A stretch of DNA of 64,000 bases from Bugula neritina (Eukaryota > Bryozoa > Gymnolaemata > Cheilostomatida > Bugulidae): positions 4,897,680 through 4,961,679 of the forward strand of contig OZ037767.1 in the NCBI GenBank assembly GCA_964035545.1, in the 5' to 3' direction. The notes beneath the pieces were generated by a model, which worked only from the letters and a program-made list of their open reading frames with translations, had not been told where the DNA came from and ran no database searches. The position numbers were made by a program, and so were the translations under genes. Positions 12,601 to 60,894 of this stretch are shown piece by piece (within the stretch, counting starts at the first letter, position 1; each line of letters begins with the position of its first letter).

Positions 12601-15600
12601 GTAACATTACTGTGGCTTTTGTTGTGTGACCAGTTGGTGATTTGTGGTTGTGATTTACTTTTCATATTTTTAAAAAAAATCATTATTTAAATTTCTAAAC
12701 CATGTTTCATAAGCAAGGTATTGAAGAACAGTTACAGCTCAGCAATAATTACAGCATTTTTACTACACATTACTCTTGCTTAAATGCCAGGTATGACCTA
12801 CTTGGTAAGGTTTTATACCATCAATTAATAGTTTCCGGAAAGGATAATAAAATCATGGCTAATAATCTTTTTTATCGACTCAAAATATCAGCCCACTGGC
12901 ACCTGTGATGATCTTTATTCGTCAACTTGTTTTTAATCAACAAAATCTGTAACGAATAAATTGATAAAAATTTGATTTCTGTTTCATATCAGGCTTCGTC
13001 TGGTGACCCCCAAGCTTTGTTTTTCTGCCAAGTGATTTTCTACTGCTTATCATTGTGAACACGCAGTCGGTTTATTAATTTTTATTTTAATCTGAAAACT
13101 TTTTTCTCAATCTTTTCAGTATATTAAGTTCAGCAGTTTGATAATCCCATGAATGTGCTTCAGTTTTCTCAGTGATGTCTCCCTTTCAATATCTTTTGTA
13201 GCAATGATATCTACAAAACTAAACATTTCAGTTCAATTATTATAACATTAGTATTTTTGATCAATCTTATGCTTCAACTGCAGAAAAATTCTAAATTACA
13301 AACGAGCTTTATAAGTTCTGATGATTTCTCTATTACCATTTAGTTATTTTATCATAATGATAATTAGGGGCTCCATAGGCTGTTTTTATTTATCTGCAGC
13401 TTGTATCTACTACAAGTGATACCTCACAGGAACCTAGTTTTAGCGATTCTTTATCCAACTCAGAATTGTCCTCTCATGGTAATGAGTTGACTTCAGGAAG
13501 TGGTTTTGAGACCACCAACCATTCAAATACTGATAGTAGTGACTCACTAGCAACTAGCAACTGTTCAACTGAACACTCACGTACTGCTAGTCACTCTCTA
13601 GTAGTCAGTCACTCAACTGACTCACAGTCTTCAGTCATTTCTGCAACTTCTACTGATTCAGACCCGTCCTCACTCACTAGCAGCTCCAAATCTGGTTATG
13701 GTAGTGTCAAACACAAAAGAGAGATAGTTCCATCTATTAAGATAAGCAAACAGAAGCCCACAAAACACTCCTCAGATACGGCTCATAATTCAGAGACATG
13801 TGCTGATAAAGTTGCGCTACCATTGAAATCTAAGCTAAACTCACAGCTAGAAGTGCATGCAGATCTGAACCCTTATGTCTCATGTGGAAAGCAGTCTCTG
13901 TCAAAGATTAGCCAAACTAGGAAAAGTGAATTCAAACACTCTAATAAGGTCTGACTGTTTAGTGTGCATGTCCACCCATCACCACTACTACCACTTTCTC
14001 AACAGCATGTCCCCCCCCCCACCACCAGCACAATCTGAACAGCATGGTCCCCCACTACCACCACTTTTTGAACACCATGGTTCCCAACATCACTACAATC
14101 GCAACAGCATGTTCCAGTTACATTTTAAAGACCGCAGAAGACTACACTGAATATTTATCAGCTGATCCGATGTGCAGCTAGCTAGTTTTGTAGACTACCG
14201 ATGTTTACCTGTTTTGTTAACCCTTAGGACTAGACACAGTTGTAAATACTCTGCTAGTTTTACATATATTATCTATATTATAGTAATGTATAAACTATTT
14301 GTATTCAAACTGACTATAACTGTGAGTAAACTGTGTGTATAATATGTAGGATGCAAGAAGTAAAGCTGGAGGTAAAAAGAAAGGAAAGAGTGTAGAGTCT
14401 ATACCAGGTAAAGAGTTTCTGAACTTTATTTAACCCTTGTTTTCTAACCAGAAGTAATTAGAGGGGAGTTTACCCGAATACTAACATAAATTTATACTAG
14501 TAAACACTAGTGTCCTCCACTTCTATGCATTAGTTTATTACCCAGAGAAAGTGCATTACCTAGAGAAAGTGCATTACCTAGAGAAAGTGCATGTTCTGGG
14601 GAATTTGTATATTTTAAATTCAACAATAGACCCTGAGAGATTCAAATAATTAATTACTTTAATCCTTGTTGACAGTATTTAAAATTGTCAGATTAAGTGA
14701 TGAAATTGAGTGTTTAATAGAATGTTGGGTTGCTAATGCCTGTCGGCTTATGCAAAGTCAGTAGAAATGTTTGGCTACTTGTAGATGATGACACTGAGGC
14801 AGCTGCACCTGTGCTGAGACCAGAGTCAGCGGAGGTTAACCTTCCTGATGACTTTGATAACGAAGAGAAATGGGCCTCATACCCCATGACTCAGGCACAG
14901 AGCGCTTTTACTAAGTATAGACAATATGTGAGTATTTGATGACCTAGGTAATATATGTGAGTAATATAATGCAGGTATATATGTAAGTAATATAATACAG
15001 GTAATATGTGAATAATATTATACAGGTAATATGTAAGTAATATAATTTACAGGTAATTTTTAATTAATATAATACTGGTAATATGTAAGTGACATAATAA
15101 AGGTATTGGGCGAATATTGGTTCTACATATTAGAGACAAGAAGATGACAGTTGTGGAGTGGTATAATTTATACACATTTTATGTTAAGTAATCGGTAGCT
15201 GCAATATTTTCACTTTTTAAAGATAGTATATTTAAGCATTTATAGCTTTAAATATCTTTAGACTCTCACATTGAAACCTGCCTTGTTTCATGCAGCTGAG
15301 ATGCTTCAAGTTATTTTACTATTTGGTTGTGTTTTGTGGGCATGAATGTCTATACATTATGCACTTTTAGTAATAGAATATGGCATGTGTACTAATCTGG
15401 CGGTATACCTGACAATAAATCAGGGGATATTACTTTAATAAAGTGTTACATTTTTTGCGGCGAACTCTCATTAATAATTATTTGGCTGTATGAAGGTTAC
15501 AGGAACACTGCACAGCTATCCTGTACTCACCAGCTTCTGTCTAGACTTCAACAAAGTTGCAGACTGTCTCCTTACTTGTAATTACCAAAAATTCCTCTTT

Positions 15601-60100: not shown

Positions 60101-60894
60101 GCACTACGTCATCTCCTATTGGTGCTGATAAAATTAAAACATGTTGAATAATTTTTTGTTACAGATATAATTGAAGAATAAAAAATAATAATATATACAT
60201 TCTATTACAATGAATAAATGTGATAACATAATTTAATCTATTTTCCATTTTAATTCAAATACAGAAAATGCCTTAATTGTTGATAGCACTATTTTGCAAA
60301 ATCTTGAATTTTTTGATATACCAAGTATTTTACACCACACTCTTTGTTTAACTTGTGGGTTACTGCAGGTTAATTTTACTTTAGGAATTATAAAATTAAT
60401 TTGTTGGGTTTTTTCAAATTTTAGGTCCTAAAACTCTATGCTTGGGAGCCTTTCTTTGAGAAAAAGATTTCCGCTTTGAGAGGCAAGGAAGTGCTGAAAC
60501 AGAGAGTTATTAATGTTCTTATCTCATGTCAGGGAATGATATATGACATGCTACCAATTATTGTAAGTCACATAAACTTAAACTTATCTATATTTATTTT
60601 TTGGCATAAGTCGGTTACTCACTCTTGTTTTCATACGCTACATATTTCCTTAAAAAAATACGCAACTATGTAGTCTGCAGTATAAATAGGATAATCTATC
60701 TTTTAGATGACTAGTCTACAGCATAAATAAGTTAATATACCTTTTAGGTGACTTTAGTGACCTTCTCAATTTACACGGCAACACAACCAGATCATAGACT
60801 GAGGCCCAGTGTAGCATTTGTAGCCTTCACTCTTTTCAATCAGCTTAAAACGCCATTGAATCGTCTCCCCAGGAGCATATCTTTCCTTATAATG
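54120..60894 (+). CDS. ABCC1-like: ABCC gene, exons 1-13: TMD0, L0 and TMD1
   Basis: Exons 54120-54155, 54839-55030, 55596-55703, 56254-56388, 56920-57042, 57278-57489, 57695-57845, 58895-58953, 59108-59297, 59478-59575, 59769-59991, 60425-60562 and 60748-60894 (residues 1-604). The first five encode the five-helix TMD0 (for example [20 protein letters not shown] and [13 protein letters not shown]). L0 follows, with the conserved basic WRQK-type region. TMD1 contains the family hallmarks [30 protein letters not shown] and [12 protein letters not shown], the first intracellular loops that couple to the nucleotide-binding domains. All phases agree. The donor at 57846 is unit one of a long tandem array, and the acceptors at 57278 and 60748 follow repeat copies of themselves. 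Confidence 0.95.

Follow-up and report, generated by a model that had tools for sequence, protein, structure and literature searches.

Minisatellites across splice junctions in the bryozoan Bugula neritina: mirage-like arrays with no detectable junction preference in a small genome sample

One model of intron gain invokes the tandem duplication of AG|GT proto-splice sites. This model is discussed in a study of lancelets (PMC3087553), the animals in which the closest described structures occur. There, tandem repeats across exon-intron boundaries, termed mirages, have been described in Adh3, troponin C, the globins BflGb6 and BflGb9, and PGBD5 (PMC3087553, PMC3902484). According to the same reports, mirages lie at donor as well as acceptor ends and many of their copies carry AG/GT signals; for the Adh3 mirage a unit length of 10-72 bp is reported. 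A first-pass annotation of a stretch of Bugula neritina DNA had proposed that minisatellites at exon edges form a pattern without a prior description. The kind is already known as lancelet mirages, and the Bugula arrays are real structures of a kind known from another phylum. Our literature search returned no report of junction-straddling minisatellites from bryozoans among the matches listed.

The likeness to lancelet mirages is close: the Bugula units span exon-intron boundaries, they occur at both intron ends, many of the copies (not all) bear a splice signal, and the unit lengths fall inside the Adh3 range. In contrast to the lancelet mirages, whose descriptions proceeded gene by gene and drew on RT-PCR and length polymorphism, the Bugula arrays are known from the sequence of one haplotype, belong to a different phylum (Bryozoa) and were set against the background of arrays within introns, over which they show no excess outside the region of discovery. 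They also resemble ordinary intronic, VNTR-like minisatellites, matching neighbouring intron arrays in unit size, copy number and position, and differ from these in that the straddling unit happens to contain a splice junction. With the AG|GT model of intron gain they share tandem copies of a segment bearing splice signals, but each array reaches a single junction and the other end of the intron is unrelated.

The discovery set is a window of 64,000 nucleotides of chromosome 3 (positions 4897680-4961679; label C3). TRF and a reading of the sequence with its translations agree on five clear arrays and a two-copy case with exon bases, as the first-pass annotation had it, and all six touch the ends of predicted exons (Table 1). 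The repeat unit was said to copy the junction with 5-20 exon bases; ungapped extension into the exon gave about 5-21, together with the donor or acceptor (in table order at most 5, 13, 8, 18, 21 and 6). In the array at 14953, a diverged first copy overlies the donor at 14927/14928 and takes in 4-5 exon bases. The arrays at 26395 and 48054 lie at acceptors 27095/27096 and 48403/48404, the latter agreeing in phase with the preceding exon, and those at 49232 and 57825 at donors 49246/49247 (exon end TGTATGTTACCAGAT|GTAAGT) and 57845/57846.

Table 1. Arrays and exons of the window, and straddling arrays of SMC2. SMC2 introns are given in block coordinates; add 1,000,000 for chromosome 4.
Feature	Location	Strand	Junction or basis
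Minisatellite 25 bp x 6, unit ATATGTAAGTAATATAATACAGGTA	14953..15105	+	TRF, sequence read, extension
Predicted exon, end ...AATAT|GTGAGT	14785..14927	+	ab initio, score 31.3; sequence
Minisatellite 28 bp x 24.9, unit TCATTACACTGTCTACTCTATATTCAAG	26395..27090	+	TRF, sequence read, extension
Predicted exon after the 26395 array	27096..27207	+	ab initio, score 22.2
Minisatellite ~16 bp x 21, unit ATATTGTATAGGTATG	48054..48407	+	TRF, sequence read, extension
Exon, rhodopsin-type receptor-like gene	48404..48577	+	score 23.2; 7tm_1 E 1e-5, under cut-off
Minisatellite 26 bp x 6.8, unit TGTATGTTACCAGATGTAAGTATATA	49232..49413	+	TRF, sequence read, extension
Minisatellite 31 bp x 17.5, unit TACTTACCTATACTGTATCTTGTAAGATATA	57825..58368	+	TRF, sequence read, extension
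Two-copy repeat, 41 bp, acceptor 60747/60748 of ABCC gene	60671..60753	+	TRF, sequence read, extension
Minisatellite 33 bp x 4.2	57139..57275	+	TRF; end 2 bp 5' of predicted acceptor (57278 exon)
Interior intronic minisatellite 18 bp x 3.1, away from junctions, comparison	14537..14592	+	TRF
Interior minisatellite 17 bp x 3.8, away from junctions, comparison	21816..21879	+	TRF
SMC2, C4 block (L015-L016) 435-12563	chromosome 4, 1.0004-1.0126 Mb		PDB match
SMC2 straddler	intron 11595-11342		acceptor
SMC2 straddler, 20 bp x 11	intron 11230-10971		donor
SMC2 straddler, two copies	intron 10847-10746		donor
SMC2 straddler	intron 6481-6273		acceptor
SMC2 straddler, 21 bp x 10	intron 4222-4018		donor

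Homology supports two of the three array-bearing genes in the window. The ABC gene is a relative of MRP1 (ABCC): its exon from 60748 aligns to MRP1, and the exon ending at 57845 is not aligned. The receptor gene is weakly supported by a putative 7tm_1 match across the 48404 junction, whose 25.6 bits lie below the Pfam cut-off of 30.5. The exons beside the arrays at 14953 and 26395 are purely ab initio predictions. Predicted exons of a coiled-coil gene at 27757-28982 match the FAM186A/B C-terminal Pfam family (37.1 bits, cut-off 37). Some further parts of the first-pass annotation did not hold. About half of the window's arrays had been placed at junctions; the count is 6 of 21, or 29% (TRF score at least 50, period at least 8, non-redundant). 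Of the weaker cases it listed, two (57139-57275 and 34547-34640) run up to a candidate acceptor with only 0-2 exon bases copied, judged by eye, for which reason the former was left out of the straddling count; the case near 31425 has two repeat copies and is absent from TRF at a score of at least 40. Arrays away from junctions do exist, as it had stated (the two interior cases in Table 1).

Outside the window we sampled 20 kb at 1.00-1.02 Mb from each of chromosomes 1-9 (blocks C1-C9) and two random 10 kb pieces; a held-out piece of 40 kb was added later. Tandem repeats cover 0-33% of the sampled blocks, and over 244 kb (the window and the sample minus C9 and the held-out piece) their share by length is 14.5% in predicted introns, 11.0% in intergenic DNA and 0.7% in exons. 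Exons were taken from a self-trained exon finder built on the main sample and the window, which misses exons, several of them beside window arrays, so that straddlers in the sample may be undercounted. Its genes include SMC2, a P4-ATPase and, by Pfam domains, ERMP1, a Slingshot phosphatase and Pellino; a protein with a DAGK_cat domain was read as a probable AGK. A permissive exon model drifted to noise (1144 exons) and was discarded, and a strict model on masked sequence lost exons beside arrays. The final model gave false exons inside arrays (C4 block 10139-10329, 4118-4144 and 4853-4907), which were removed by hand. Reading by eye with extension identified 20 straddling arrays, six in the window, five in SMC2 and nine elsewhere. 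Arrays, phase and positions were thus observed directly, as was their frequency in this small sample.

The assembly used, tzBugNeri2.1, comprises nine chromosomes (PMC11480708). On C1-C9, matches to the kinase family PF00069 are mostly stop-free. On the small unplaced contigs (C11 and up), most such matches read through several in-frame TAA/TAG, and TGA is absent with few exceptions (about 105 of 114 by count), as in ciliates in which TAA/TAG encode glutamine; the assembly thus probably includes a ciliate contaminant. The block at 1.00-1.02 Mb of chromosome 9 (L025-L026) has a GC content of 0.43, with long ORFs at 0.55-0.58, against 34% for the genome. One of its ORFs holds what we take to be a reverse-transcriptase-like stretch, and the block looks like a GC-rich retroelement.

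SMC2 provided exons that could be checked by homology, as the gene was identified by colinear stretches of PDB 9f5w_A (E=0). Its introns contain 22 arrays amounting to 4888 of 8528 intron bp (before correction of two exon ends); minisatellites occur in most introns and form more than half of the intron sequence, and several introns are mostly array. The first-pass annotation had proposed that donor arrays keep the outermost copy and acceptor arrays the innermost as the frame-preserving site. Continuity with solved SMC2 chains, e.g., KPPE|ILSMIEEAAGT and REIDS|LIEEE, suggests at the protein level that the used site is the exon-proximal copy, which would bear out this proposal for SMC2. Two further SMC2 arrays were rejected as straddlers: for 10027-10576 the phases fit a donor 28 nt upstream, which places the array ~13 nt inside the intron, and for 4857-5027 a donor 12 nt upstream of the array is likely.

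We then compared the straddlers with a uniform expectation for each intron, in which a unit of length u may fall anywhere along its host intron and its chance of straddling is 2(u-4)/(Lc+u). Here Lc denotes the length of the intron after collapse of array copies, and a straddler must take in at least four exon bases. Block C9 (transposon-like), arrays of period below 9, 43 of the 166 non-window arrays (in no predicted intron) and five of the 21 window arrays (no hand-set intron) were dropped before these counts. The straddler at C3 block 18181-18337, which lacks a second exon, counts towards the 20 and is absent from the 13 given below; four ambiguous near-junction cases were left uncounted (C1 block 18844-20000, C5 block 3134-3685, C3 block 15333-15572 and SMC2 5197-5248). 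Outside the window, 13 of 123 arrays straddle at the loosest exon threshold compared with 20.6 expected, and the stricter exon-score thresholds gave 13 of 103 (18.1 expected) and 13 of 87 (14.9 expected), i.e., no excess at any of the three. The position of arrays along the collapsed intron is compatible with uniformity at the same thresholds (KS p 0.94, 0.25 and 0.25). SMC2 considered separately gave 5 of 22 against 6.9 expected, again no excess, and in the held-out 40 kb, where introns are mostly weakly supported, 0 of 17 arrays straddle against 0.4 expected. In the window, which is the discovery set, 6 of 16 straddle with 1.7 expected (P=0.003, KS p=0.01). Copy number does not differ between straddling and other arrays (medians 4.6 and 3.1, p=0.27). 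An automated straddling test with the window included gave 20, 18 and 15 straddlers against 21.9, 20.5 and 15.7 expected; it recovered just two of the six window cases and was therefore replaced by the hand-read cases. Hence, outside the window this small sample does not bear out a general junction bias; in it, across-junction duplications are about as frequent as, or somewhat rarer than, a rule without preference predicts. At the loosest threshold the count lies under expectation (P=0.02), therefore full neutrality at junctions is likewise not established.

These counts bear on the proposal that splice-junction sequence, being AG|GT-rich, transcribed and perhaps R-loop-prone, promotes duplication so that arrays are seeded there preferentially. 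Besides the window, several comparisons favour it. With random insertion under the same exon finder and strict exons, 22 of 137 native arrays lie within 10 bp of a junction compared with 17 of 646 inserted ones, and 13 of 137 compared with 5 of 646 straddle; a permutation test found 22 arrays within 10 bp where 10.0 were expected (p=0.002); and a virtual-unit test gave 33 of 149 against 8.7% at exon score 18, a 2.5-fold excess, and 11 of 149 against 4.8% at exon score 25. The first two nulls were set aside because they exclude or restrict overlap with exons and are not conditioned on the host intron, and the third because it too lacks this conditioning. Native arrays do lie nearer to junctions, but a unit of 15-40 bp that originates anywhere in a short intron often takes in its end. 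The statement of the first-pass annotation that positions within ten bases of a junction make up a few percent agrees with the random-insertion null (2.6-4.8%), but that null does not permit overlap with exons and is unsuitable for units of 15-40 bp where little of the intron is free of repeats. Junction odds of 1.5 would lead to 26.2 expected straddlers, for which P(<=13)=0.0002, provided the counts are complete. Furthermore, tandemly repeated 24-mers account for 15-17% of interior and 3-5% of junction-centred positions, and 0-0.2% of junction 24-mers are matched in other introns; junction copies are therefore real but rarer per site than interior repetition.

Donor motifs in the units count against seeding. 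Among 156 arrays, donor motifs scoring at least 5 occur in 14.1% of units, near the level of dinucleotide shuffles (11.3%) and above that of random non-array segments (7.1%); at a score of at least 7 the values are 2.6% of array units and 0.9% of shuffles. Acceptor motifs scoring at least 4 exceed the shuffle level, with 23.7% of array units and 14.5% of shuffles. Donor motifs scoring at least 5 show no clear sense bias (11 sense, 9 antisense). Genome-wide, GTAAGT-N10-GTAAGT occurs 1385+867 times and the reversed pattern 73+87 times, an excess that speaks for seeding, with the places listed dominated by a few long arrays. Two long arrays on chromosome 1 (463620-464749 and 1044200-1044637) consist of a 16 bp unit, GTAAGTATAATATACA, with a donor-like and an acceptor-like motif. 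Both intron ends are affected, with 12 donor and 8 acceptor straddlers (p=0.50), and a uniform distribution fits the exon shares of the units (KS p=0.23, n=20), therefore an anchoring of breakpoints at the junction is not evident. Altogether, we consider promotion of duplication by splice sites improbable as a general rule; in view of the excess in the unconditioned tests, the window itself and the missed exons, a preference that is modest or confined to some loci would still fit.

The first-pass annotation had also suggested that selection tolerates or retains such arrays, perhaps as splicing buffers. On a selective reading, the arrays would buffer or regulate splicing through spare or decoy splice sites that have a function. 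The units span junctions, as it had described, and GT or AG is found in register in 115 of 146 decoy copies (20 arrays); 19 of the 31 misses come from the array at 26395, where a one-base shift spoils the ungapped register. Many decoys score similarly to the presumed used site, and in the array at 57825 the GT is kept in 16 of 16 decoy copies with scores like that of the presumed used donor. In C. elegans, splicing choices have been connected with minisatellites that lie close to alternative exons (PMC4039745), which is in line with such a role. Against it, the splice dinucleotides of decoys do not significantly exceed the remaining columns in conservation (identity to consensus 0.899 and 0.866, p=0.11; this figure includes the rejected SMC2 array 10027-10576, which the exon-share, divisibility and donor-to-acceptor figures exclude). 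In addition, unit length is a multiple of three in just 3 of 20 cases (p=0.10), therefore most decoys would shift the frame and in-frame buffering is not favoured, and straddling arrays show no excess outside the window. Retention by selection thus appears very improbable.

A further possibility is intron birth, in which coding sequence duplicated in tandem gave rise to the introns that now bear the arrays. For amphioxus globins, the same structure has been put forward as a way in which new introns arise (PMC3087553), and the SMC2 introns that are mostly array would fit such an origin. However, by our reading each of the 19 straddlers whose intron is defined extends to a single junction, the opposite end being unrelated sequence, therefore the intron seems older than the array; we hold this origin to be remote for the Bugula introns.

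We favour undirected tandem duplication, which junctions would tolerate since the exon is preserved by its nearest copy, a reading to which we assign a probability of roughly 0.75. The junction arrays would then be mirage-type minisatellites of a genome whose introns appear rich in minisatellites in general. Short stretches, mostly of 15-40 bp, would be duplicated in tandem and subsequently expanded, without splice sites being detectably preferred, and as collapsed introns are often short, a sizeable share of founding units would take in an intron end together with exon bases. The exon-proximal copy, i.e., the first donor or the last acceptor, would keep the original exon and frame, and the remaining copies would become intron, which may be why duplications at junctions survive. 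The molecular mechanism (slippage or unequal exchange), the neutrality of the arrays and the use of the exon-proximal copy in RNA are what we infer from these patterns.

Published mirages that we found were described gene by gene in lancelets, and Bugula has enough of them for a quantitative test of junction preference; the most useful new point is accordingly a quantitative one, the lack of junction preference in our sample. Minisatellites can moreover supply more than half of the intron length of one gene, as in SMC2. If RNA confirms the junctions, the array at 57825-58368 with its 16 decoy donors would be a ready-made test of exon-proximal choice. It is doubtful, on present counts, that in some Bugula genes or segments such as the window duplication is truly favoured at junctions, leaving a dozen or more near-identical donors or acceptors (17 at 57825-58368) of which the exon-proximal one is reliably spliced; if true, such locally junction-favoured arrays would constitute a natural, genome-scale test of splice-site choice.
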